Source: Pneumocystis sp. 'macacae' (taxonomy: Eukaryota > Ascomycota > Pneumocystomycetes > Pneumocystales > Pneumocystaceae). Taken from it: a stretch of DNA of 64,000 bases. A program made the position numbers and the translations under genes. Within the stretch, counting starts at the first letter, position 1; each line of letters starts with the position of its first letter. The notes under the pieces were generated by a model. That model worked only from the letters and a program-made list of their open reading frames with translations, was not told where the DNA came from and ran no database searches. Shown here in pieces: positions 7,764 through 54,589 of this stretch. Where the stretch lies: positions 62,001-126,000 of the forward strand of contig CM030724.1 of assembly GCA_018127085.1 (NCBI GenBank). The letters are read 5' to 3'.

Positions 7764-7845
7764 GTCCATTTGGCGCAATGGTAGCGCATTCCTCTCCTAT
7801 GTACGCCCGAAGGAAAGGTTGCGGGTTCGAGTCCCGTAATGGATG
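7764..7845 (+). tRNA. tRNA-Arg (anticodon CCT) with a 10-nt intron
   Basis: It folds as a cloverleaf: acceptor 7764-7770 with 7838-7844 (first pair G-U), D stem GCGC/GCGC, anticodon stem TTCCT/AGGAA, T stem GCGGG/CCCGT with loop TTCGAGT. The anticodon CCT is at 7796-7798. Ten bases (7800-7809) sit after position 37, the normal place for a nuclear tRNA intron, and their removal leaves a 7-base loop CTCCTAA. The discriminator is G at 7845. A TTTTT run at 7848-7852 fits an RNA polymerase III terminator. The body strongly resembles yeast tRNA-Arg(CCT), which reads AGG. Confidence 0.93.
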
Positions 7846-14066: not shown

Positions 14067-15806
14067 GTTCAATTGGACTTTTTTTAAAATGAAGATTAAT
14101 AAAGATAAAAAGAAAAGAGAATATATTTATTGTCTGTTTTTTTATTGTTTTGTTCGGATATTTTCAGATAAATTTCTACGTTAAAATCACTGATTTTTAA
14201 AATTAATGTATTTTAAAAGTTTTTAATTTTTGTATTAAAAAATATTGAAGTTCTAATGATGTTATGATTTTGATATTAAGTTATTTTAATTCTATAAGAT
14301 TATATGATTTTTATTGGTTTTTAAATTTAATATTTAGAAAAAAAAAAGGAAAAAAATATTATTGCTTAGGTGATATAAAATAAAGTTATAGAAATAATTT
14401 TTTTTGCTAGTTGAAATTTTTTAGTGGTTTTAATTAGCTTAAAACTGTTTGTATTGTGAGTATATTTATTTTATTAAGTAAAAATATGATTTTTTAAAAT
14501 ATATAAATTTTTAAAATTTTAATAAGTTGTGTTCAAAATGTTAATCTTTTGTTTTTAATTTTTTTTATAAATGTTTTACTTGAAAATATAAAAAATTAGT
14601 GGTTATTGTAAATGATTATTTGGTGATAATATTAGAATTTTTACTGAATTTTTATGGAATTTCTTAATTTGTAGTTTATATATATTTTAAACTGTTTTAT
14701 TAAATATTTTTAGTGTACAAATATTCTAAAATTGTTAAGGTTACTTTTTTTATTTTTATATTTTTTTAGTTTGTATTTAAAGAATAATTGAAGATTTTTA
14801 ATACTAATATTTACATTTTAATATTGTAATTACATATTATTTTTTATTTTTATAGAAATTTAACTAGGAAAAGTATTAGTAATTTATTTTATAGAACATG
14901 ATCAATAAATTTAAATTAGATTAAAAATGAGTTAAAAATTTGCTTTTTTTGGATTTTTGGGAGTTTAATATAATAAATACTATTTTTGAAAAGTTTAATT
15001 TATATTTAATTTTCTCATATTTTGTATGGTATTTTTAAATAGTTTTTCTAATACTGAATTTATAAATTTGAGCTTTCATTAATATACTTTTGTAATAATT
15101 CTCTGTATAAATTTAATTAATAAAAATATGTTTATAGAAATAAAAATATTTATTTATAATTTTTAATTAATTTTAACAGTTTTAATATTTTTAAAATATC
15201 TTTTTTAAGATTGAAAGTTGGTATTAAACAAATAAATGTTTACTTTTGTATGTAATTTTGATAATATGTTATTGTTAATTTTTAATTTTTATGAGTTATG
15301 AAATTAATGTTTATAGATTAAATACTATAATTTTAAAATTTTGCTATTATTTTAAGGGTTTTATTTGTTTTTTTAGTTTATTCTTTAGTTTTAATGAATT
15401 AAAATGTTTATTTTATTAGATGTTAAAACTTCTTGGTATTCTTTAGAATTGTATTTATTTTTTGATTTTAATGATTTAAAGGTTTTTTAAATTACAATTT
15501 TATGATTATTGTTATATATAAATTAGAAATAATAAAATTTACTATTTTTAAAAAATATGAATAGTACGTGTCAATGTTTAATTTTATAAATAAATTTAGA
15601 ATATTTGGATTATGATAATTGTTGAATTCTATAGAAAAATGTATCTTAAAAACAAAATTATAATTTAGAATAAAAAATGATAAGTTTACTATTGTTTGAG
15701 TTAAAAAAAAAAACGATTTTTTGAAATATTTTAATGACATTAAGATTAACATGTTATCAAAAATATGCCATGTAAATTATAATACACTGAAATTTATTAT
15801 TTTAAA
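14067..15806. other. Long gene-free AT-rich block
   Basis: About 1.7 kb between the Glo3-like start and the Sed5 stop. Almost entirely A/T, with clear T and G excess on the plus strand: in 14221-14280 I count 8 G and 1 C, and in 14401-14460 12 G and 3 C. The only sizeable ORF (15492-15752, minus) is a low-complexity Phe/Ile/Asn string and was rejected. No RNA gene recognised. Confidence 0.6.
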
Positions 15807-16971: not shown

Positions 16972-19348
16972 ATGTTAATTTTAAAAATGAGGCTTAAATT
17001 AATAAATTTGAGAATAATTCCTTTTTATCAAATTTATGGTTTTAAACCAGTAGCAAAGATAATATTTAGAAAAAATATTTATTCATTAAAATTCAATAAA
17101 GATCAAGATTTAATTCATATTCATTCGTTAGCTTTAAAATCTATTGTAGGAAAGAATTTATGGGCTCAAAAGTTACTTCAGCCTGTATTTCTTACTCTTA
17201 GTTTTAGAAAAAATACCAATTTTATAGGGAATTTAGATGATTTGTCTTCTTCTATAGATTATACAATAGTTTATAAAGAAGTGTATAAATTAGTTGAAAA
17301 TTCTAAGTTTGAAGATTTAGTGGATTTATCTAATAAGATTTCAGAACTTGTTTTTAGTCAAAAGTGTAAAGCTAATTGGGTTAAAGTAAAGATTGAAGTT
17401 CCTAAAGGAAACTTATTTGCAGAAACAGGATTGCAAGTTATAAGAAGAAAAGATGGTATTGTAGAAGCAGATGACCAATTTTTTGTAAAAAAATTAAGTC
17501 TTTTTACAATCATAGGTATGAACTCAGAAGAAATGGTCAATAAACAAAATATTGTTATTAATTTAATATTATACAAATCACCTATAAATTTAGATCGAAA
17601 TTATTCTATTATACATATGTATAATATTGAAAAAGTTTTAAAAGAAATTATCAAAGTTTGATAAATCTTTATGTCAACAAATTCACTGATGAATTAAGTA
17701 TGTAGAAAGTTCGTCTTTCAAAACTATAGAGGCTCTTGCATTATCAATAGCAAGAATTTCATGTATCTTACATAATATTGAAAAGATAAAAGTAAATGTA
17801 GAGAAACCTAGTGCTTTGGCCTTTGCTAGATCTGCGGGTGTTGAAATTGTTAGATCACGATCTTGTTTTTTTTCTGATGAATATATTAACTCCAAAGGAT
17901 CTATTGATAATGATGCTATTTATATAGCGTTAGGTAGTAATCTTGGGAATAAAGTGAAATTTATTTCAGATGCCATTGAAAAAATGTCTATTAAAGGAAT
18001 AAAGATTTTAAAAACATCTATGTTGTATGAATCAAAACCTATGTATTTTGAAAATCAACCGGTATTTTATAATGCCGTATGTAAGGTTCATAATATTCTT
18101 CTTCTCGATTACTATTATTCTAATGATTTAAGGTAGAAACTTCTTTGAGTCCTGAACAGCTTTTGGTCGAGTTAAAAACAATTGAAAAAGAGCTTGGACG
18201 TTTTAGGACTGTTGATAAAGGCCCTCGATGTATTGATTTAGATATTATTTTTTTTCGCAGGGAAATAATTAACTCTGAATCATTGACTATTCCTCATCCT
18301 CAAGTACTCGAACGTCCATTTGTTTTAAAACCCCTTTGTGAGTAAGTAATATATAAATAGAATAATTATTTTTTAATTAAAAGCTAGCGTGTCTAATAAT
18401 CTTGTTCATCCTGTTACTGGTTTTCCTATAGTTTTTTATCTTAAGAAAGCGGTTGATCTTGGTATTAAACCAGTTTTACCATTTTTACATAAAAATAAAA
18501 GTATAAATTTTAGCTTTGAATCTTATAAAGCTCCTACCTATCTTATGGGTATTCTAAATCTTACACCTGATTCTTTTTTTGATGGAGGTGTTCATTCATA
18601 TGATTCAATAATAATGGATGTAAAAAATTTTATAAACGCTGGAGCAACAATAATTGATATTGGTGGGCAGTCCACACGCCCTGGTTCTCATATTATTTCT
18701 TTAGAAGAAGAGATTTCTCGGGTTATTCCTGCTATAAAATATCTCTTAAAAGTGTATCCTGATATTTTAGTAAGTATAGATACTTTTCGTTCTGAGGTTG
18801 CAGAACAAGCAATTAGAGTTGGTGCTAGTTTTGTTAATGATATAAGTGGAGGAAGACGTGATTCAAAAATGTTCAATGTAATTGCAAAGTTGAGAGTTCC
18901 AATATGTATAATGCACATGAGAGGCGATTTTTCAACTATGGATAACTTAACTGATTATGGTACTGATATTATAAAACAAATTACTAAAGAACTAGAAGAA
19001 CTACTTACTTTTGCTGAAAGTTCGGGTATTCCTCGATGGAATATTATTTTAGATCCTGGGTTAGGATTCGCTAAAACTCCCTATCAAAATATGGAATTGT
19101 TAAGAAGATTCAATGAATTAAAATCTCAGAATTGTTTTAGTGGTTTACCTTGGTTACTTGGCCCAAGTCGTAAAAGATTTACAGGATATGTTACAGGTGA
19201 TGCTGTACCAAAAGATAGGATTTGGGGTACTGCTGCTGCGGTTGCTGCATCTGTTTTAGGAGGTTGTGATATTATACGGGTTCATGATGTTTATGAAATG
19301 TATAAAGTTTCAAGAACTTTGGATGCTATTTGGAAAGGGGTTTATTGA
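16972..19348 (+). CDS. FAS: Folic acid synthesis multifunctional protein: dihydroneopterin aldolase, HPPK and dihydropteroate synthase
   Basis: Carries three consecutive steps of folate synthesis; DHPS is the sulfonamide/dapsone target. Predicted 746 residues from exons 16972-17655, 17699-18085, 18133-18341 and 18388-19348. Two DHNA-like halves come first (about residues 1-290; the second ends in SSSFKTIEALALSIA), then HPPK (AIYIALGSNLGNK, RCIDLDIIFF, IPHPQVLERPFVLKP), then DHPS (MGILNLTPDSFFDGG, IIDIGGQSTRPGS, LDPGLGFAKT, GPSRKRF). As I recall, published Pneumocystis FAS is about 740 residues; the alternative start at 16987 would give 741. The last intron needs the acceptor CTAG at 18387, since the nearer AG would create a stop. 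Confidence 0.97.
18674..18682 (+). other. DHPS sulfa-resistance codons, wild-type Thr-Arg-Pro
   Basis: ACA CGC CCT encodes Thr-Arg-Pro at residues 523-525 of this model, within GGQSTRPGS. These correspond to the Thr55 and Pro57 positions (Thr517/Pro519 in full-length numbering) whose Ala and Ser changes are associated with sulfa exposure in P. jirovecii. Both are wild type here. Confidence 0.9.
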
Positions 19349-21530: not shown

Positions 21531-23345
21531 ATGGTTAAAGTATTTTTATAAATATTGATTATTATTATATTTATCTAACATGTTAAGTCTCGTAAATTAA
21601 AAAATACTGACCGTCAAGATTCATTAGGTATTCGAATAAAATCAGCTATTTCTATTGAGCCTCCAAAGAAAGTTATTAGGGCACTTTATGATTATGTTTC
21701 TCAGTCTTCAGTTGAACTTGCATTTTCTAAAGGTGATTTTTTTCATGTGATAGGTAATGAAAATGATGAGAATTGGTATGAAGCATGTAATCCTGCAACT
21801 AATGTACGTGGTCTTGTTCCAGTATCTTATTTTCAGGTCTTAGGACGCACTGAGAAAGATAGTTTGCATATTAGAAATTCTGAGAAATTAAATGAAAAAA
21901 ATCATGTTATTGAGACTCCAGTAAGGAATCAGTCTTTATATGGAGTTGTTCAATATGATTTTCATGCAGAGAGACCTGATGAGCTTGAGGCTCAAGCTGG
22001 GGAAGCTATTATAGTGATTGCACAGTCAAACCATGAATGGTTTGTAGCTAAACCAATAGGTAGATTAGGTGGTCCAGGTCTTATTCCTATTTCTTTTATA
22101 GAGATTAGAGATTTTTCTACGGGGAAAGCTGTTACTAATGTTCAGGAACTTGTAGATAGTATGGCAATCCCAAGAGTTGAAGAATGGAAGAAAATGACTG
22201 CTGAGTATAAGAATAATAGTATTTCTCTTGGTAAATTTGATTTTAATGAGAAATCTTCTAATAAAGACAATTCTGTCCCTCAAAATACTCAAAGTGTTAA
22301 TTGTTTAAAGAAATGTATGCATAATACTAAATTGGTTTCTGGGTCTTTTTGTAATAATGAGTATATTTGTGTGATTTCTTCACGTGTTATTAAACATGTT
22401 TATATTAATGAGGGATACCAGTATCTTGTTCATGCTGAGATGGAAAATTCATGTTATCGTAGTTTATTTAGACATTATGAGGATTTTTATAATTTGCAAG
22501 TGATGTTGCTTGAAGAATTTCCGGTAGAGGCTGGTAGAACAGGTGGGCGACGTATATTACCATATATGCCAGTGCCTTTATCCTATGTTGATGACCAAAT
22601 TTCTCAAAGAAGATGTATTGATTTAGATACTTATTTGAGAGATCTTTGTAGATTGCCATCTTATATTAAACGAAGTTCTTTAGTAACAGGTTTTTTTCTT
22701 TTAAGGGAAGCTGATACAGAGTCTAATACGCCTATAACAATTCAGTTGTCTAGTTCTGAGTTTTCTGGTAAAGTATCTGAAAATTCCGAGTCATATGGTT
22801 CTTTTTTAAATGATAATGATGTATCTTTGTTTCCAACCAGTTCTAAAAAATCTATTTCAGAAAGTCTGTTATCATCTAATGCATTTTCTTTGCCTGTATC
22901 TTCAGGGGATTTTGGGTTTAGTTCTAATACGAAGCCTTCTGAGTCAGGATATGACTCCGAGTTATCTAAATTGAGTGAAGTATTTCGGAAGTCATCTATT
23001 TCAAAAAATGAATATATTTATCCTTGTGTTTCTCAAACAGTTTTAAAGGAATGTCAGACTCAGGATCTCAAAATGCCACAAGATAATATTTTTCATGGTG
23101 GAATTCATTCAGATTCTCTTTATATTAAAATAAAAATATTTTTTGCAGATGATCTTATTGCAATTCGTGTACCACGGCAAATTACATTTATTCAACTTAT
23201 GGAAAAACTTCAAGATCGTTTAGGTATAGTGATAAAATCTTTGCGATATAAAGAAATAAATAATCATTCATGTTTTATAAAATGCGATGATGATTTACGG
23301 GACGCAATAAATCAAAATTCAAAATTGGTTTTGTATGTTGAATAA
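21531..23345 (+). CDS. Bem1/Scd2-type polarity scaffold
   Basis: Binds Cdc42, its exchange factor and PAK kinase during polarised growth. Predicted 588 residues from exons 21531-21539 and 21588-23345; the first exon codes only Met-Val-Lys. Domains in order: SH3 (about 30-90; VIRALYDYVSQSS, ENWYEACNP, GLVPVSYF), SH3 (about 120-180; VVQYDFHAERPDELEAQ, LIPISFIEI), PX (about 260-355; LFRHYEDFYNLQ, RILPYMPVPL), a Ser-rich linker, and PB1 at the end (IKIKIFFADDLIAIRVP, LRYKEIN, DDDLRDAI). Domain order and the text EPPKKVIRALYDY match fission yeast Scd2 closely. Confidence 0.95.
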
Positions 23346-26690: not shown

Positions 26691-29600
26691 ATGGTAAAAT
26701 TTTATATATTGTGTTTCTTTTTTAAATTTTATAGGTTAATTTTGTGGCACTTAATACTCCCCCTGAAACAGCTATTGATATTGAGAATCACACTAAGGAG
26801 GTTCAGGTAAATTGAAATGTTTAATCTTGTTTTTTTAAAAAAATAGATTGAAACTGGATTGAAATTGTATCAACGGGCTCTTTCACTTCAGCATGCAAAA
26901 GATTGGTCTGCTGCTGCTAAAGTTTATGAAGAACTTTTAAGTTTAGATATACTAAAGTCTAGTTCTATTGAGGTTTGATTTATATATGTTTATATGTACA
27001 AATAGTGAATTGCAACAAGGAGTTATGTAATGTTACAAGTGAAAGAATGATACGTTTAATTTATCTTGTATATAAGAATTATGGATCTTTTGTTTTTGAT
27101 ACTTTGATTTCTTCTGATTCTAATGATGACCATGGATTATCAATGTTATATACTTGTTTGAAGAACTATTCAATTGTAAAATAATGTTTTGTCTTTAGTA
27201 TTTTTTAAAATAATATTAGGCTTTAAAATATGATCATGATGATTTGGCATTATGGATGAAAGTTTCTGAAGTATCTGAGAATTTAGGTTTAAATAGGATT
27301 TTTCGTTTTTCGCTAGAAAGTATTATATCTAGTGAAATGGAATTATTAATAGACCGTGAATATTCTGTTGATCGTACTTCATATGGGAATATTTTGTCTC
27401 CTGAAATTTATAAATCACTTATAAAATTAAATTCTGTAATTTTTATTTCTATTTTTTTAATACTCATAAATAATAGTTGTTGCATTCTATTAGAGATTCT
27501 AGTAGTCTATTAAATGCCAAAACTATGATTTTATGCTATGATGAAAATAATCATCTACAGACTTCTTACTTTGATATGAAAATAGTTTTTCAAGAAAAGA
27601 AGTTTGTTAATTTACAAAAAAAGTATAATATATGTGTTTATAACATGTTACTAAGATTTTATAAGGGATTCTCATTTTCAAAATAGTTTTCCTCTTATAT
27701 TAAAAGTTCCAGAAAGGAATATTGATTCCATTAGCATAACATTAGCCTCTTCTTTTTTAAATAGGTTTGTTTTTAATTTCAAAGAATTATATTTTTAATT
27801 GTTTTCAAGATATGAAAGAAATGATTTTGAGTTTTATTCTCATATAGAATTCATAGAAAATCAAAAACATATTGACAAGTGTTTGTCTGAAGTAAATGAT
27901 ACTGAAATTCATGAATCACAAATTATTGTTACTTTACAAAATGATTTTGGGTTTTCTGAAATGTTTCAGGAATTGTCCACCGATATTGACAATTCAAGAA
28001 TATTTTTAGAATCTCATTCAGATATTAATAATCTTAATGATTTAGAGTCAGAGTCTTTTCAAAATAAAATAGATAATGACAATATTGATTCATTGAAAAA
28101 TTTTAAAAAAAGGCATTTGAATGATGAAAATTATGAAAAGGTAAATATAGATTTAGTTTTAATTATATATAAAATATTTTTAGTCTCTTAGAGTTAGTAA
28201 GCGGATACGTGATAAAGATGGTATAAATTTGAATCATGAAGAAAAGGATATTTGTTTTGTTAATTCTTTGAATGAAATTTTTAGTAAAGTTGACATGTAT
28301 TTTGGGGAATATTCTACGTTTATTTGTCCACCTGCTGATATTTTCTTTGAAAACAATGTAATTGATAAACTCAGGCAAAGTTTGTATTGTGGTTTCTTAA
28401 CTGAAGATGCTATAAACGATGTTATTCAGGAAAAGTAGTTTTTTATTATTATTTGCCTTTTTTAAAAACTTTAGAAGTTTTTCGATGTTTCCTAGGGTTT
28501 TTTACTTAGATCTTTCTAAACATTTAGATATTTCAGTTAATATCAATGGAAATGAAAATTTAACGGTTATTGATGAATTTGAATCTTTTATTAATAGTGA
28601 TAAATATTCATTAGACGAAATTTCTTTGGAATGGTTTAAAAGAATTACTTTTTATTCTTATTCTGATTTAGGTACTCTGTATTTTCAAAAAAAATGGTCA
28701 TCAAGACTTAGTAATGCTGTTATTCAGATTGCAATTAATGTGGAAATAGAATGTTTGTGTTTTTTTAAAAATGTTCTTAAGAAAAAAATCTTTTGTGATA
28801 ATTATACAAATGATGCCATTTCAATGGAAATAGAAACAGGTATTATCCAGGTTTTAGGAGTAAATAATAGTACTGTTTTTCTTTTTTGATCATTTTTATA
28901 GTGGGCACAAACTATTTTAGAATTATTTTTAAATTATTATGTTAAGAATGAGCGTAATGACTATTTTGAGTATTTTTGCTTTTATTTATATTTTTTTATA
29001 ATATTTATAGAAAAACTGAAACAGATGAATTGATATTTCAAAAACAAAGAATATGTCGATGGAGACTACTCGTTAATGATTTGATGCTTGCATATGGAGT
29101 TTCATTTGACAGTTTGCAAACAAATAATGATATGATAAATCTTTTGCTTCGGTTCGTTTGAAATATTTTATTTTATTTTGGAAGTAACTTTTTAGTCATA
29201 AATTTTGTAATGCAATTATTCTCGAGTATTTTGGTGCATTACATGAATCAGTTATAAAAGAATATCAATATATTAAAGATTACATGTTGCAACTTGGCAA
29301 CGTTTCTGTGATTTATTTTCCAAATTGGTAAGAGTTTTTATTTTGAAAATAAGTTTTTTATAAGTAAGTGAGGTTATTTCAGAAATTTCTCTTTTTCGAA
29401 TTGATTTGGAGATATCAAAATTAAAGACTGTTGATTTTTTTACTTCTGTTTTTGTATCATCTAGATTGATGGAATATAATTTAGTTATTGAAAAATTGAG
29501 ACCTGTTTTACAAGGATCTTCTGAATTGAATGAAATATTTAAGTTTAGTTTAGTCGAGGAATTTTTATTAAAAGCTCCTATTGATTTTAAGTTACAGCTC

Positions 29601-32600
29601 TGGAATTTATTGCAAAATGTAACTTTCTTAATACATAAAAATTTTGAAATAGACTGATTCGAAAAAGGCATATCATAATTTATCTCAAGTTGAAGATGCT
29701 TTATGGTGTTGTTTGAAAGCTCTTTCTTCTGTGATCTCGTATTTTGATTCTTCGTTCTATAAAAATGTTATGACGGAACAACAAATGACTATATTTATAT
29801 TAAAACGGTTATTTTCCGTTAGTTTTTACATATTTTTTGTTTATGATTGATGAATAATATATAGGCATCTCAATTGATTTCGTATGCTTTGCAATCTTTA
29901 GTCGAACATGATAAGATACTTAGTATAATTTTTAAATACATATATATAATGCTTATTTTTAATAGGTTTTTTGAGTAACGATGTTATTTCAGAATCGCTT
30001 TCATCTTTTTTGGTTATTTTGCGTCTTCTTCTTATTTTTTGCTTTTTTGAGGATTCTATAGTAGATAATAATTCGTGTACTCCTAAGTTTTCAAACAATG
30101 AAATTTTTGACAATAAGCTTCATAATATGCAAGTTCAATCATGGTGTTTTGCATATTGTTTATATAAAGAAATTCTTTTGGTAGGTTATTTTATTTTATT
30201 TTTATTTAATTGTATTAGAGAAAAAAAACGGATACTAGTTCTTTTTATACTGATATAACGAAATTTCTTTGTCTTATACATGAGGAATTAGGAATACGTG
30301 GATATTGCTCATTATCAGATGGTATGTAGTTTTGATTATATAATCTGGTTTACAAAAATAGGGGTACTTTTACGAATTCTTCAAACAGAGCTTTTGAATT
30401 CTGGATCTTTTTCTCTTACTTCTGAAATTATTCAGTGTTTACATTGTCGGTTTGGTTTGTCATTCGGGGTATATTGTTTGATTTAATTGATGATTTTATT
30501 AATAAAGTTGAGACTGAGAATTTTTATCCATTTGATCATTATACTGAGCCTTCTGATATTGATTGTTTTTCTGCTGAACAAATTTTACCTTTTATTTTAT
30601 CTCTTATAAATAAAAGACGTTCAGGACTTACTCTTCCTAGAGCTGATATAAAAACAGTTTTAGATAGAATATATAATGTATTAGAAAATGCACCTAATTC
30701 TAAAGGTATTTGTTGTTTTGTGTTTAGTTTTGTTTATTAAAAAAATAGTTTCTAATGCATTTAATTTTGCACTTATTAGTGCTTATTTGTCTGAAAATAT
30801 TCGTTTAAATGATATTATTGGATGTCAATATGGTTTATTGAAAATCAACACTATCGAAATTAAAAATTTTGATGACAGTTGCGGTAAATATATTTTTTTT
30901 AGTTATAATACTTTTATTTTTTAGACTCTTTTGCTTTGGCTTTATCTGATGTTAATTTTGTACAAGCAGAGATTCATATTAGTATGTTTCGTTCAAGAGG
31001 AAAGACAACTTCAACAAGGGGTACTGATGATCTTCAATTAGCATTGAAATATTTAATGGTAATGATTTTGTTAATAATTTATAAATATTAATATAAAAGG
31101 CTGATCTATCTTTAAATCCATGGAGGATGTCGTCATGGCATGCTCTTGGCTTGACTTTTGGTTGGTTATCTGATGATGAATTGACATGGAGTGCTGAATA
31201 TATATATAACGAACAAAAATCTATTTCTGACTTGAGAAAAGTAAGTTTTATTTATGTAAATTATACTGTTATAATTAAATTTCTATTGAGAAATCTCTTA
31301 AGGCATATATGATGGCTTTTAGCTTCTTTATTTCTTCTTTTGATAATGATATGAATGATAATCTTGTTTATTCTTTTTCAAATCTACAATACGACTTTGG
31401 ATTGCAATTATATACATCAGTTCATCCTCCTCTTGACATGGAGCCTTTTATTTCGAGATATTCGCAATTTTATAATGGTCCTGATGGACTTTTGAAACGT
31501 GAACTTACAAATGATGTTTCTTATCATAGAATTATTGAATTGTCAATGAAATGTTTTTTATTTGCTTCGAAAAATAATGGTGATTGGAGGTATTATTAAT
31601 ATTATTAGTATTATATATTTTAATGATTAAAAATCTTAGATGTTTTTATATGTTAGGTAAAACACTAGGGAAATTAAAACGTGATCCTAAGGTATATTAT
31701 ATATTATTTAATTATGTAGAATTTACTTACCTTTTTAGCAAGTTCTTGATCAATATCTTTGTGCTATTAAGTTAGTACCTCGAAAAAATACTGTTTCTGG
31801 ACAGGCTATTATTATTGAACCTGATTATAAATTAGTTTCGTCTATTATAAAATATATTGAAGGAGATTTTATTAATGTTTTTATTTCATTCTTTTATTTA
31901 TTCTAAAAAATGTTAGTTAGAAACCGCTATGATGTATCTTCGAGAAATTGCATATGATAATGATATTTCCGAGTTAGAAACGCCTGTGAAAAAAGATGAC
32001 ATTATTGAAATATGTTTGATCGTTTTGAAACGAATACGGCTTGCTGATAAGAAACATTGGCATCATAGACCAGTTTTTAGGGTTTTTAATTATTAGACAT
32101 TTGTGATTTTATTTTTATTGATAATTTAGTGTGCAAAAATTCTTGAAAGTCAATTTAAAATTCAATCTGCTAAAGATGAATTGGAGACTCTTTTTTCTAT
32201 AAGAACTTTTGGAAAGGCTGTTATTAATATTTGGCGTCCTGATTTTGAACGGTTTGTGGTTTTTGATTTAAAATATTTAAACTTATTTTAAGTCCTGGGC
32301 GACATTTTTATTATGCTAAAAAATATACACTTTATTTTATAAAACTTTTGGAAAAAACAAATGATAAAGATGGTCTTAAGCTTTTACTTAAAAGGCTTCG
32401 TAAAGTTTCTTCTTCTATTTATCATCATCGGTATGTATGGGAAAATCTCTGTACTGTTTATTTAAATGTATTCTATACTTTATATTATTTGAAAATTGAT
32501 GCTTATTTTAGTTATTGCGTCGGAATGCATCTATTCCTGAATGTCCTAGTATGGTTTGGGATATTCCATTGTCGAAATTTAATTTTATTGCTACTAAATT

Positions 32601-33000
32601 TGAAGAACAATTTTTGAATAATACTATTTCTGATGAGTATGGAATTGATAATATTCGAGATGTATTAGAGTTGAAAAAAATAAACGGAGGATTATTTAAT
32701 GTTGAAATAATCGATCAATTTTTAATAGATATATATTTTAATATCTATTTATCTTTTTCTAAAGAAATTGACATTATGAATAATTCTTTGGTTAATATAG
32801 ATAATATATTGAAAAGAAAAAATATTTCAAATGATTTGGATGATAGTAATAGTTATGCTAATACAAATAATATATACATGGCATTTGATGGTGCAATTAA
32901 TAACAATTTAGATAATTTGGTTTTGATTAATGATAATTTTGTTTTAGTTTCTCGAAAAGATGTTCTTTCACGCCTTTCTTTTTTTTCTAGAACTAAATAG
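26691..33000 (+). CDS. HIR3: HIR histone-chaperone complex subunit Hir3/CABIN1
   Basis: Helps the HIR complex deposit H3-H4 and repress histone genes. Predicted 1670 residues in 30 exons: 26691-26693, 26735-26806, 26847-26972, 27020-27175, 27220-27435, 27477-27622, 27666-27764, 27810-28140, 28184-28434, 28475-28859, 28902-28969, 29011-29151, 29196-29327, 29369-29618, 29653-29817, 29865-29922, 29966-30180, 30219-30321, 30362-30454, 30508-30705, 30749-30883, 30925-31058, 31100-31240, 31303-31589, 31640-31691, 31739-31876, 31917-32081, 32130-32251, 32293-32434, 32512-33000. Recognition text: NFVALNTPPE at the start, TPR-like ALKYDHDDLALWMKVSEV, KSLRVSKRIRDKDG, DWRCFYMLGKTLGKLKRDP and ELETLFSIRTFGKAVINIW. 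The exon 19/20 junction is the least sure. Confidence 0.9.
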
Positions 33001-34614
33001 TAGATAACATTATTATTAGTATTTACAAATAAAAGTAATATAATCTTTTTGTTATATATTTTTTTACTATAAAATTTATTATAATGTAGAATTTTCTAAT
33101 TAGTATATTAAATAATAAATATAAAATAGTTAATTTGTTTTTAATATTTGTTTTTAATAAATTATAAAATTAAATATATTATTTATATCATATTATGTAA
33201 TTATGTTATTATGTTATTACATTTCAAATATGTATTGATTTAATAATTATAATTATATTTGTATATAATTAATAGAAAACAATGTTGAATATTATTTAGT
33301 TGATAATCTTTTTATAATTATATATTATACATTTTAAAATACATATAATTTATTTCTAAAAATATCACATCGTATACTTATGTAGTTTCTATTTAGTTTT
33401 AACATTATGTATAATTATAATACTGATAGTCTATGATGTTAATATTATGCATATTTTGTAGTATTTTAAAAATAAAAAAATGATATATCAGTATTATTAT
33501 AAATTATAGTAATATAATACGTAATATTAAAATCACTAGTAATTATATACGTTTATAAATAACCTATATAAAAATATGTATTTTAATGATATTGGAGTAT
33601 CTGTTTTTAAGATAAATTTTGATTAATTTAATTAAATTGCATACAATTCTAAAGTTAATATAAATAAATATAAATAAATATAATATTATGTGATAATTAG
33701 TTCGATAAATAAGTCTAGTTTTCATTAAATAAAATTAAAATTATAACCATTGATTTCATAGCATTTGTAACATTAAATATAAAATTATAATAATTAGATA
33801 TTATTTATGTATAAAATTTATGTATAAATGTAAATATATTAGATATCTAAAAAAATAATATTTAAAAATATATAAAAGCATATCAGAATTAACTATTTTG
33901 TTAATTTAATGTAATATTGAATATAATACTATAATCGTAAATTTTAAATCATTTTAATTAATGTAATATTAACAGAATATTAATGAAATATTTTAAATAT
34001 ATCTTATGTAATTATATGATTTATATAAACTAAAGATCAAAATGTTATGAAAAATGTATCTAAAAATATATATAAAAATAATATAAAACAACAGAAAATA
34101 TTTATATTTTTTAATATTTCAAATAAAATTATTTATGTTAATATAGTTTTAATTATATAAATGTTATTTATATAAAAATTGAGATTTTAGTAGAAGATAA
34201 TATTATCAGATGTTTATGAATAAAGGATGTAATAATTAATTATATAATAGCAAAATTTAAAAACATTTACAATTTTCCATTAAAAAGTACGAATTTTTAT
34301 ATCTATAACGTATTCTATAATCATTGTTATATAAAACGTATATTCAACGAGTATATAAATATATATATAGATTAATTTTGTCGTATTAAAAATATATTGA
34401 AAATTATAACATAAAAATGGTATATCGTTAATAAAATCCTTAACTACATATTCTACTAGTTTTAAAACTTTTAAAAGTATATTATTTTATATATTTTATA
34501 TATTTTATAAAATTTTATAAAAAATAACTGTCAAAATATATCAAATCATACGATTTTCAAATTATCGATTCATTAAACAAAAAAACTATACAAATAAAAT
34601 ATTACATAATTACA
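33001..34614. other. Gene-free, extremely AT-rich block at a strand-composition switch
   Basis: About 1.6 kb, nearly all A/T with many short ATATA/TTATA strings and no ORF or RNA gene that I could recognise. It lies between the tandem genes HIR3 and MUS81. Plus-strand sequence to the left is T/G-biased and to the right A/C-biased, so the block coincides with the switch point. It holds the HIR3 3' end and MUS81 promoter at least; a replication origin or centromere core is possible but unproven. Confidence 0.6.
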
Positions 34615-36498
34615 ATGCAATCATGTGGAAACCCTTTATATCTTCAATGGGTAAGCGAATGGATGCAAGAAGCGAAAGAAAAAAATCATAAATCTTATAG
34701 CATATTTAGAACAGTAATTATAATAACATTTAGAAAAAAATTATGACAAAATTTAGGCATATAACTCATTATTATCATGTCCCATAACATTTTCAGAACC
34801 AAGTGAAGCAAAAAAATTAAAAGGAATAGGAAACACTATATGTGCACGTATAGAAAAACGATTAAAAGAATACCAACAAACTCATTTAGATAAAAATACA
34901 GAAAATCAAAGTACAAATATTCATTTTTGTTATTACTAAAAATATAAGGTAATGCAGAAGTCAACATTAATTCTAAATTATACTTAAATCCAAAAACCAC
35001 ACAAAAAATTCAAAAAGTAAATAAAACAAAAACACAAAAAACATATATACCTGGATACAGATCCAAATCTTTTGCAATACTCATTGCTCTTTTAAAACTC
35101 GATGAAGATACATCAGTCTCAAAAGAAGAAATACTAAATATTGCAAAACATTATTATGATACAAGTGATGTTAAAAATATATATTCATTATGGTATGGAA
35201 TGAAAATTCTACTAGAAAAAGAATATGTATATAAAACTGTCAACCCAACTAGATACTATCTTACAGATTATGGAAGAAAAATTGCTACTGCTATTTCTAC
35301 AATAGCATTTTCTAAAGAAAAAATAACTGAAAATAGTAGTTGTTCATTCAAAAAAAATCTAGAACAAGATTTCATTAACAAAGAAAAAATGACTAAGCAA
35401 TCTTATATATCAAAAGAAATTGCAAAACAAAAAAATGAATATCATAAAACATATCCAACTAAAGGTTCGAATCAAATTACAGAAGTAGCAAAACAATCAA
35501 AAAATACTCCAAATGAATTCATGCAAAATATAACGAATATAACCATAGACTGCAAAATAATTCAGCAAAATTCATATTCTATTATATTGTTATTAGATTT
35601 ACGAGAAATGAAAACTGAAAAAGATAAAGAATTTATTCAAAATCGTCTAAAGGAAGAATCTATTAATTTCGAGTTCAGAACATTAGAATTAGGAGACATT
35701 TTATGGATTGCGAGATGCAATATAACTAATAAAGATTACATTTTAGATTTTATTATAGAAAGAAAAAAATTAAGTGATCTCGCAAATAGCATTAAAGATG
35801 GAAGATTTCATGAACAAAAGGTACAATATTTACATAATGCATTTTTTCAAACATAACTTTTTAGTTTCGTCTTTCTAAATCTGGATTAAAACATGTCATA
35901 TATATTATCGAAAATTACAATTATAATTCAACAGATCTACAATTAGAAACTATACAATCAGCAATTTCAAGTACCCAAGTTGTTAATGGATTTTTTGTAA
36001 AAAGAGTTGCAGGACTGACAGAGACAATTAAATATATAGCAAGGCTTACAAGATACATATTATGTGCTTATCAAGTATTTAAAATGTATCATATATTCGT
36101 TTATTCATAATCATTAGACTCAAGATCTGTATATTATCCCTAGCTATAGTATCAATTCACAAACATATACAATTCAAAAAAACAAAATAAATTCAACTTA
36201 TCCAGAACGTTCTTACGTTATCGAATATAGTACATTCTCAGATTTTTTATCAAAAACAACATCATTAACATTAGGTGATTTATTTCTTAAAATGTTATTA
36301 ACAATCAAAGGAGTAAGTCCAGAAAAAGCAATTGAAATACAAAAACATTTTCCAACTTTGAATGATTTATTAACATCATATTCTAAAGAGACATCGGAAT
36401 ATCAACGAGAAATCATGATCGCAAAAAAATGCGTAAATTATGGCAGAAAAAATATATCATGCTCATTATCCTCAAAAATATACAAAGTATTCCAATAA
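34615..36498 (+). CDS. MUS81: Structure-specific endonuclease subunit Mus81
   Basis: Cuts 3' flaps, stalled forks and recombination intermediates together with Eme1. Predicted 571 residues from exons 34615-34713, 34757-34910, 34949-35820, 35865-36074 and 36118-36498. Parts in order: N-terminal helix-hairpin-helix (GNPLYLQWVSEWMQEA, then PSEAKKLKGIGNTICARIE), the winged-helix region (PGYRSKSFAILIALL, YVYKTVNPTRYYLTDYG), and the nuclease domain (LLLDLREM, then IIERKKLSDLANSIKDGRFH, the ERKxxxD active site near residue 355). A C-terminal HhH element (LLTIKGVSPEKAIEIQKHFP) closes the protein. The Lys/Gln-rich linker in the middle is lineage-specific. Confidence 0.95.
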
Positions 36499-36964
36499 TC
36501 ATCAAAATATTACAAGTTATAGTCAACAAGAAAACATATATATATATCATAATATGCAACAATAATAAATATATCAATACATTGATTATATACTGTTATA
36601 CCATATTTATCATTATATTACAAGTCATTCAAAATTATATTATAAAAACATATTACACTGTATCCAACTAAACTATATGCATTTTTTTCCATTTTTAATA
36701 AACTAAGTTCATATCTGCTCAAATAATCATACTATTATTAAAATAACATTAAACCACATTATTATATAAATAAAGATTATTCACATCAAAAATTAAAGCT
36801 AAATTTATTAAAGTCATTTATCCGTAATTATAAATAATCAAGTTTCAAAAAAAAAAAACATTTAGATAAACAATTTTAAATAATTATGAGTAAAAAAACA
36901 TTAAAGCTAAACGCATAAAAATAATTTTACACACTAAATCACAACTTACAGTATATTAAAATGT
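36499..36964. other. Gene-free convergent spacer
   Basis: About 470 bp between MUS81 and BRF1 3' ends. The overlapping ORF at 36429-36671 is low-complexity Ile/Tyr text and was rejected. Confidence 0.55.
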
Positions 36965-52187: not shown

Positions 52188-54589
52188 AAATCTAAAGACA
52201 TTCTTAATAAATTATTTTAAAAAGCATATATAATACTTAATAGACTTTTATACAATAATAAGACTCTAAAATTCAAAATATTAAGTGAATTCTTATGTTT
52301 TTTTTTTTAAATCATAAATTTCTATATAAAATATTTATTTTTATTAAAATCTCAATTCGTTTTCAAGAATTTTCAAAATTTATAAAATTCAAACTATTTA
52401 ATCTTAAATTAGCACAATAATTATTTGTATTTTAAATTATAAATACATTAAAAAATCAAATTTTTGTAATTCCAAAAAAAAGTAAATATTTTTTTCCCCA
52501 ATATTATTTTTAAAAAATTTAAAATATTCTGTTAATTTTTAACTTTGAAATAAAATATAAATACAAAAAGTCTATATCCAAGATCCGAATTTTTATTAAA
52601 AAAAAACTAAAAATTGTGTGTAAATAATTTTAAAATACAAAATACATCACAAAAATTATATTATATTTTAAATATGTATAAATATTTAAAAATATCTTAA
52701 TATTTAATCATTATCAAGCTAAATTAATTTAAGATCAAAAACAAGATTTATAAAAATACTAAATATTTTCATTATTTATTTCAAAAATATATAAAATATT
52801 ATTTAAAAGCAGACACAAATTCTAACATAAAATAATTTTAATTTTTGACTACAAAATCATGGTTTTAAAATCATAGCAGAATAAAATTCATACTTAAAAT
52901 TAAAAATTATTAAAAAATGATAAATCTTTAAAGGGTTAATATATAAAATTTTAATTTTTATAAAGCATCAACGTTCAAAAAAATAAAATAACTTTAAAAT
53001 AAAAAATTTTAAAATTCTAATAAAAAATATTTTACTCAAAATTAATAACAATAAAAAATATCGACAAAATACTTTATTGTCTTCTATGTTAAAAGAAGAA
53101 GTGTGAAACAATATTAAATTAGTATTAAAAAAAGCGAATCATAAAATTTATAAATTTTAAAAATTCATATTGTGAATTAAATTATAATAAAAGCAATGAT
53201 ATGACCATATGTTCAGCAATAAAAATAAATTCTTAAAGTTTATATTTCTATAACTTTATTCAACTTAAAATCAATAAAATTTATAACCTCGCAAAACAAT
53301 TTTCCTCAAAATCAACAAAAAATGTTAAAAAATAAATAGTAACTTTAAATTTTAACAATCTCATACTCATATAAATAATAAATGAAAAAAGTCATTAAAA
53401 AAAGGACATTATAACTAAAATCGTTTTTAACAAAATATACAAAACTCTAGTAAAACGGAAAATAAAAAAACTATATAAAAATAAAAAATACTTGAATATA
53501 TTTAAAAATTAGATAATTATGATAAAAAAAGACATAATTTTAAAATAAAAAAATATATAATTTTTTTTAAAAATTACAGAACGTATATTCTATTATATTT
53601 CAAAATATATAACAATGTTAGCCATTTTTAGTTACTCCTATGCATATAAAAAACACATATTCCTAAGAACAGAAAACTTCTAAAAAGACAAAATTATAGT
53701 ATCATTTTATAATAGTATCATAAATTTTTACTAAAATAAGATAATACTATATTTAATATTTAATAAACAGTGAATTTAAATATAAACTATAAAAGATCTA
53801 TATAAATTCCAAATATATAAAGTCTAATTATATTCTCTCTTCATACTCTTTATTCTACATTTATAATTATTACATAAATAAATTAGAAATATATCTAAAT
53901 ACCAAAAATATAGATTCTAGAAAACTAATCTATAAAAAAAACAAATACTCAGCTATATATATTCGCTTATTTTAATTTTATTTTAATCATATTTATCAAC
54001 TATTTTTCTCAAAATTATCTTCTAAAAGTAATTTCAATACAAATATTATCATCAATCTACTTTATCTTTCCTCATAAAAAATATAAAAACTACTTTTAAT
54101 TCTTTTCCAATATATTCATTATTCACAATTTTTATCAAAAGTTTTAATATCAAGCAAAAAAAATGATTAACAATACTTTAAAAATTAATATAACAAAATA
54201 CAAAAACATTTAAAATAATAATATAAAATAAATATATTCTTAAATATTAAAAATACAGTATTTCTTTAAAAACATTTACTAATTATTTATTTAAGATTTT
54301 TTATTTACCAATTTGTAAATATATTACAGATTTTAAAATTATCAAGTTCCAATAATATATATTCATATAAATGCAAATAATTAATCATATATGCTTAAAA
54401 ACACTTAAATGAATAAAAACTCTATAGAATCAATCATTAAAACATAAAAAAACATAAAAACCGAACTGTATTGTGATGTGTTCGAATAAAAAAAAAATAC
54501 ATTTTTATCTATATATTTAAGATTCTTTAAATTAAACGTAGTGACGTTTTGTTAAATAAATAACCCTATATAAATAGTACCTCAATAAA
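52188..54589. other. Longest gene-free block, A- and C-biased
   Basis: About 2.4 kb between the divergent starts of the Rsc7-like and PHD genes. No ORF of note. The plus strand is rich in A and has more C than G (in 53281-53340 I count 10 C and 3 G), the reverse of the left half of the window. Both promoters lie here, but the length far exceeds other divergent spacers in the window (37-523 bp). Confidence 0.6.

Follow-up and report, generated by a model that had tools for sequence, protein, structure and literature searches.

A gene-free AT-rich block between two plus-strand genes

The stretch of DNA analysed here, hereafter the window, is 64,000 bases long (positions 1 to 64000) and corresponds to C5:62001-126000, where C5 is a contig of 556,021 bases in a Pneumocystis genome of 8,274,841 bases and 19 contigs. 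Positions marked C5 refer to the whole contig, and unmarked positions refer to the window. The published P. macacae genome is reported as 8.2 Mb in 16 scaffolds, with ~16% divergence from P. jirovecii (PMC7940399). A BEM1-like ORF at 22161-23342 is 86% identical to BEM1 of P. jirovecii RU7 and 69% identical to the P. murina protein. With 150 of 588 candidates scored, the MSG family (PF02349) has at least 152 matches in the genome, most of them close to contig ends, whereas 14 control genomes have none. MSG matches lie close to both ends of the contig (C5:5.4-8.9 kb and C5:545.9-547.3 kb), which fits C5 being a whole chromosome. One internal match, at C14:391 kb, is distant from the remaining C14 matches (4-13 and 645-655 kb).

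A hyper-AT block (33001-34614, unstranded, GC 0.128), which is a candidate replication origin and a possible centromere core, separates two genes of the window. The initial annotation described it as a 1.6-kb ORF-less block between two same-strand genes. Both neighbours are indeed on the plus strand and the block is gene-free, but one frame of 68 codons, the sole one of at least 60 codons, lies wholly inside it. The left neighbour (26972-33000, plus strand) is an intron-split gene whose start is simply that of the first frame seen. HIR3, the name it was given in the initial annotation, is kept here as a candidate, and the three exons that were scanned have no Pfam match. The right neighbour (34615-36498, plus strand) is a MUS81-like endonuclease gene according to Pfam, with matches to PF02732 (E = 7.6e-17) and PF21136 (1e-06) at 34948-35853, and with PF21292 under its cut-off at 36118-36495.

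ARAGORN and Rfam searches detected no RNA genes at the block. Between 24 and 44 kb of the window there are no direct repeats, and the inverted repeats consist of one 49-nt, 73% pair at 40-42.5 kb. Elsewhere in the window, a tRNA gene at 7764-7845 is recognized by Rfam (57 bits) and missed by ARAGORN, perhaps owing to an intron. A pterin-binding (dihydropteroate synthase) domain is found at 18545-19345 (E = 7.7e-80), and the gene initially labelled "FAS" therefore probably functions in folic acid synthesis rather than encoding fatty acid synthase.

An abrupt strand switch on C5

The plus strand was initially described as having G>C and T>A to the left of the block and C>G and A>T to its right. 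Cumulative skews, binned skews and a change-point fit all confirm this description, and the accompanying hand counts (8 G/1 C, 12 G/3 C and 3 G/10 C) were exact on recount. The cumulative curves, which had been suggested as a check, reach an extremum at the G-C peak (34250) and the T-A peak (33467). A two-mean fit on C5:40-160 kb places the change point at 33501 (bootstrap 95% interval 32501-36751), with a score of 324.8 versus a maximum of 114 among 2000 shuffles of 2-kb blocks. The change point is thus in or beside the gene-free block. When C5:20-300 kb was scanned with a jump index, flanks of 5, 10, 20 and 30 kb alike gave a maximum at C5 95.5-96.25 kb (33.5-34.25 kb of the window). The index there is 0.60 versus 0.36 for the runner-up with 5-kb flanks, and 0.49 versus 0.17 with 20-kb flanks, and the raw GC jump is 0.29-0.36. 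This is the single standout switch from G/T to A/C within C5:20-300 kb.

The left domain (1-33000, plus strand G>C and T>A) extends leftward to ~C5:15-20 kb and spans ~75 kb. The right domain (34615-64000, plus strand C>G and A>T) extends rightward until its bias reaches about zero by ~C5:245-270 kb, 150-175 kb from the switch. When C5:1-250 kb is divided into 5-kb bins, G exceeds C in 16/16 at 15-95 kb, C exceeds G in 11/11 at 95-150 kb and in 15/19 at 150-245 kb, and T exceeds A in 15/16, 0/11 and 1/19 of these bins, respectively. At a resolution of 2 kb, both skews are positive in 30 and both negative in none of the 37 bins of C5:20-95 kb. Both are negative in 21 of the 24 bins of C5:97-145 kb and in 33 of the 50 bins of C5:145-245 kb, where the bins with both positive number zero and one. 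GC skew is patchier than AT skew on the right side, as G exceeds C in 3/24 bins of C5:97-145 kb and T exceeds A in 0/24. Means for C5:245-300 kb are -0.010 (GC skew) and -0.016 (TA skew), yet TA skew is negative in 20 of 27 bins. The pattern is broken in the outermost, MSG-bearing 15 kb of C5, which have C>G with T>A.

Gene orientation or transcription might create a bias of this kind, and its contribution can be read from third codon positions. We used 317 stop-to-stop frames of 80 or more codons in C5:1-300 kb (the longest ones that do not overlap, which are uncurated proxies for exons), read all skews on the plus strand, and compared C5:20-95 kb (left) with C5:96.6-200 kb (right). From left (n = 40) to right (n = 49), plus-strand frames change from +0.471 to -0.083 in GC skew and from +0.216 to -0.031 in TA skew. 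Minus-strand frames (n = 30 and n = 64) change from +0.065 to -0.321 and from +0.014 to -0.217. Mann-Whitney p values for these left-right shifts are 4.5e-11, 7.4e-15, 3.9e-10 and 3.5e-9, and fourfold sites shift in agreement with third positions. With genes masked the sign also differs between the two sides, as the GC skew of spacers (at least 400 bp, without a 45-codon ORF) flips from +0.218 in 13 left gaps to -0.286 in 8 right gaps. For the 73 frames of the window itself, none of 1000 permutations that preserve strand attains the observed value. Although a gene-strand component does exist (0.02-0.22 for GC and 0.03-0.12 for TA per 25-kb bin), plus ORFs, minus ORFs and spacers each change sign, and the switch persists when orientation is controlled. 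We therefore reject gene orientation and transcription as the source, giving them next to no chance, and the original statement that gene orientation does not explain the switch holds.

After correction for genes, the GC component per 25 kb is +0.20, +0.27 and +0.32 to the left of the switch and -0.26, -0.34, -0.07, -0.20, -0.31, -0.15, -0.01 and -0.10 to its right, where the bins at C5:20-45 kb (four minus frames) and C5:121-146 kb (one plus frame) are thin. The fade is uneven, with -0.07 at C5:146-171 kb, a bin that includes a portion of a GC-rich island, and -0.10 again at C5:271-300 kb.

Jumps in the opposite direction occur on C5 at 149, 213 and 243 kb, the strongest reaching -0.46 when flanks are 5 kb and -0.28 when they are 20 kb. 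These jumps, and the dependence on a single assembly, would be in keeping with a misjoined or rearranged assembly in which two unrelated, oppositely biased arms were brought together. A simple inversion, however, would leave a second opposite jump of similar size, and -0.28 is well short of the +0.49 found at the switch with the same 20-kb flanks. MSG genes near both ends of C5 are as expected for a whole chromosome, and C1 has a like switch with the same type of block. We consider an assembly error very unlikely.

Composition of the block and a second switch on C1

Nine 1.6-kb blocks of C5:1-300 kb are AT-rich, with GC at most 0.185, and this block is the GC-poorest among them; at 900-1000 bases, two other places on C5 (178 and 260 kb) are GC-poorer. 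None of the remaining eight has a jump comparable to the switch, and AT-richness was rejected as its cause on that account. Two comparison blocks in the window are AT-rich and rich in A/T runs, one at 14201-15800 without a strand switch and one at 52301-53900 without a comparable one.

Run and dinucleotide ratios, calculated in 900-bp windows with expectations from shuffled letters, set the block apart from 12 comparison blocks (11 on C5 and one on C7). Runs of five or more A or T occur at 0.60 of the expected frequency in its lowest-GC window and at 0.76, 0.79 and 0.89 in three set windows, versus 1.29-1.87 in the comparison blocks. The observed/expected ratio is 1.06-1.14 versus 0.80-0.97 for TpA and 0.86-0.93 versus 1.01-1.17 for AA/TT. 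A TpA ratio of at least 1.05 is found in 0 of 377 overlapping 900-bp windows outside the block (GC at most 0.24, C5:20-300 kb). The scarcity of runs would make the block less like a nucleosome-free promoter or a poly-A origin, and more like chromatin with its own rules.

Other contigs were surveyed with words that are strongly strand-biased on C5, by reading the strand of each match elsewhere. The pooled map comprises 225 markers on C1-C11, with some rows left out. Adjacent markers outside C5 are on the same strand in 116 of 184 cases, whereas 5000 permutations gave 92.0 such cases on average and 113 at most. Peak tests on individual contigs gave p values of 0.058 (C1), 0.22 (C2), 0.074 (C3), 1.0 (C4), 0.90 (C6), 0.86 (C7), 0.25 (C8), 0.85 (C9) and 0.08 (C10). 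Only C5 falls below 0.05, and that result is circular, C5 being the contig from which the words were taken. Switches on C2, C3 and C10 are suggested, and the word map has no comparable switch on C4.

C1 was not used in choosing a denser word, of which 100 of 908 matches were listed. Among the matches listed, those on C1 are on the plus strand in 14/14 cases at 134-214 kb and on the minus strand in 17/17 cases at 249-328 kb, where two of the 17 overlap. Another word places the switch between 222,820 and 234,177, and its minus side has been traced with words only. Two further stretches of C1 are biased among the matches listed (minus in 6/6 at 46-85 kb and plus in 6/6 at 612-631 kb), suggesting additional origins nearer the chromosome ends. 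On C2, 19 of 21 listed matches are plus at 31-150 kb, several of them overlapping, and the last two in the list, at 179 and 181 kb, are minus.

Three 1-kb samples were taken from the C1 gap at 223-234 kb. Two have GC of 0.248 and 0.236 with both skews positive. The third, C1:231001-232000, has a GC of 0.117, skews near zero and frames of at most 53 codons, the last of which continues past the end of the sample and could be the start of a gene. Of the 299001 one-kb windows of C5:1-300 kb, 469 have GC as low as this. They are located at 178 and 260 kb, away from the C5 switch, so a switch cannot be recognized from low GC by itself. In its first 900 bases, the C1 block has a run ratio of 0.85, a TpA ratio of 1.11 and an AA/TT ratio of 0.88. 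The C5 and C1 switch blocks are therefore both TpA-rich and run-poor, whereas 12/12 other AT-rich blocks examined are the opposite. Since the C1 block was found by strand bias alone, its match in composition is the strongest sign that switch blocks, of which there are two here, form a distinct class.

A common sequence family of switch blocks is unsupported. The C5 block has one match in the genome besides itself, ~145 bp at 71% on C7, and this short stretch is run-rich and lies within a G/T-rich domain. The other matches of the C1 block are on C3: the one at 220.8 kb falls within the switch interval of that contig (192.2-231.9 kb), and the one at 254 kb does not. Pairwise blastn gave weak matches among all pairs of AT-rich blocks listed, and is therefore uninformative on their kinship. 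In a preset test, an AT word enriched in both switch blocks was expected to form clusters within the switch intervals of C2, C3 and C7-C10. The outcome was negative on C2 and C3, where 0/5 clusters are inside the intervals among the matches listed (100 of 271, extending as far as part of C6), and a reversed control word is equally common (283 places versus 271). The AT word has six matches at C1:231.3-233.7 kb, two of which (233.2 and 233.7 kb) are outside the DNA used for word choice.

A candidate replication origin and possible centromere

The initial annotation suggested that bidirectional replication starts at the switch. Such replication best explains the abrupt, gene-independent switch, the long fading domains and the sign of the bias. 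Replication as the cause, the identity of the leading strand and the block itself as the start site are what we infer. On this evidence, a dominant and evolutionarily stable bidirectional replication origin probably lies at the block (33001-34614) or no more than 1-2 kb away. The sharp sign change to A/C in the rightward direction, independent of gene orientation and present in spacers, is as found at skew-marked origins of the yeast type.

If this is correct, forks would leave the block both ways in most cell cycles, and unequal mutation of the leading and lagging strands would over long times make the leading strand A/C-rich and the lagging strand T/G-rich, yielding an abrupt change of sign at the origin. 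Further out, ~150-175 kb rightward, the bias would fade as forks that started elsewhere take over more and more of the replication. The bias on the left persists, somewhat weakened, to ~20 kb from the left end of C5, where there may be few opposing forks. An abrupt switch with long flanks, the right one fading, is what an origin with a broad fork-meeting zone beyond it should produce. Counting against an origin are the uneven fade and the opposite jumps of up to -0.46. The far half of C5 also counts against it, as nine 2-kb samples of C5:320-522 kb have mixed signs (GC skew positive in 8/9, TA skew negative in 6/9) that an origin at the block does not explain.

The expectation that yeast leading strands have an excess of A and C, on which the initial annotation drew, agrees with reports for S. 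cerevisiae, K. lactis and C. albicans (PMC3459929), and we assume by analogy that the leading strand of Pneumocystis is A/C-rich as well. Because the reports are for these three species only, the sign in Pneumocystis could be reversed, in which case a G/T-rich leading strand would make the block a fixed fork-meeting point or a strong two-way barrier. Fork-meeting zones in eukaryotes are described as normally broad (PMC3459929), whereas the C5 switch takes place within a few kb and the right domain fades gradually. A reversed sign would also need a near-complete barrier as well as an origin near the left end. A reversed sign is therefore improbable.

Origins of S. cerevisiae and K. lactis resemble the C5 switch in the abrupt change at the origin and in the A/C-rich leading strand, which is an assumption for Pneumocystis (PMC3459929). 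However, the skew jump at S. cerevisiae origins is reported as ~9% and is gone in ~20 kb (PMC3459929), whereas the gene-corrected third-position GC jump on C5 is ~0.58 (+0.32 to -0.26) and the domains are 75-150 kb. An asymmetry of this size points to a small number of highly stable main origins, in contrast to model yeasts with their many stochastic origins. The 11-bp ACS, the S. cerevisiae ARS consensus, is no commoner in the C5 block than in other AT-rich DNA (3.1 matches per kb, versus 0 to 5.0 in six comparison blocks and 0 in the C1 block).

Schizosaccharomyces pombe and Pneumocystis belong to the same subphylum, and S. pombe origins are AT-rich and intergenic, like the C5 block. Poly-A tracts are reported as the best predictor of S. 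pombe origins (PMC3446301), whereas the C5 block has no enrichment of poly-A/T tracts, which are below expectation (0.60-0.89, versus 1.29-1.87 in comparison blocks). This argues against a fission-yeast-type origin. The part of Orc4 that was read, upstream of the ATPase region and short of the N-terminus, has no AT-hook by eye. Among the titles and abstract starts covered, with most subscription journals outside the scope, we found no map of Pneumocystis replication origins.

Early origins with skew switches are reported at C. albicans centromeres and predicted in several relatives and in Yarrowia (Koren et al. 2010, cited in PMC7263194). For this reason, a centromere that is also the main origin stays the most interesting reading of the block. 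The core of a Pneumocystis centromere might then be a gene-free, TpA-rich and A-run-poor block that doubles as the dominant replication origin of its chromosome, which we propose tentatively, as less likely than not. Centromere-linked origins of C. albicans and its relatives and of Yarrowia lipolytica share with C5 a gene-free spot, a strand switch and the lack of a sequence common between chromosomes. They differ in that the Pneumocystis case is built from sequence alone, with a switch that is clear on C5 and, with the denser word, on C1, and that is absent from the word map of C4.

The block has lower GC than the genome and a unique sequence, as do the regional centromeres of Pneumocystis, but these are weak criteria because they are true of spacers without a switch too. 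Published Pneumocystis centromeres are 4.8-8 kb long, span several expressed genes and have a GC content 3.9% lower on average (PMC10327204). Like the block, they are unique and repeat-free with lower GC; unlike these genic centromeres, the block is gene-free and 1.6 kb long. The word "skew" has no occurrences in the main text of PMC10327204.

The link between centromere skew and replication in C. albicans is disputed, because the 74% skew jump at its centromeres has been judged unrelated to replication (PMC3459929). By extension, the block could be a centromere whose skew comes from centromere chromatin instead of replication. The C. albicans jump is larger than that on C5, but it is reported to reach only ~3 kb to each side, skew being back to average ~3 kb from the centre (PMC3459929), whereas the bias on C5 extends ~75 kb to the left and 150 kb to the right and is present in third positions of both gene orientations. 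A chromatin-derived skew thus seems highly improbable.

If the block is both centromere and origin, a fixed block has written opposite biases along whole chromosome arms, and centromeres and main origins would be readable from sequence. PMC10327204 names deposited ChIP-seq data for Mis12 and H3K9me2 in P. macacae and for CENP-A in P. murina and P. carinii (GSE226536 and GSE230598), against which this reading could already be checked. More generally, a sequence signal that predicts replication starts, and perhaps kinetochore sites, would make both testable with existing data. Such prediction is valuable because the genus has no dependable continuous culture (PMC10327204).

C5 also contains islands of 45-63% GC at 145-155, 210-215 and 320-322 kb, compared with a mean of ~29% in C5:1-250 kb. 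No Rfam match was found in the island pieces L011, L012 and L018 (C5:210-215 kb) and L029 (C5:320-322 kb). The islands are possibly hotspots of GC-biased gene conversion. By eye, they carry long open frames resembling ordinary housekeeping genes, such as the deoxyhypusine hydroxylase-like and eIF4A-like helicase frames at C5 211-214 kb.
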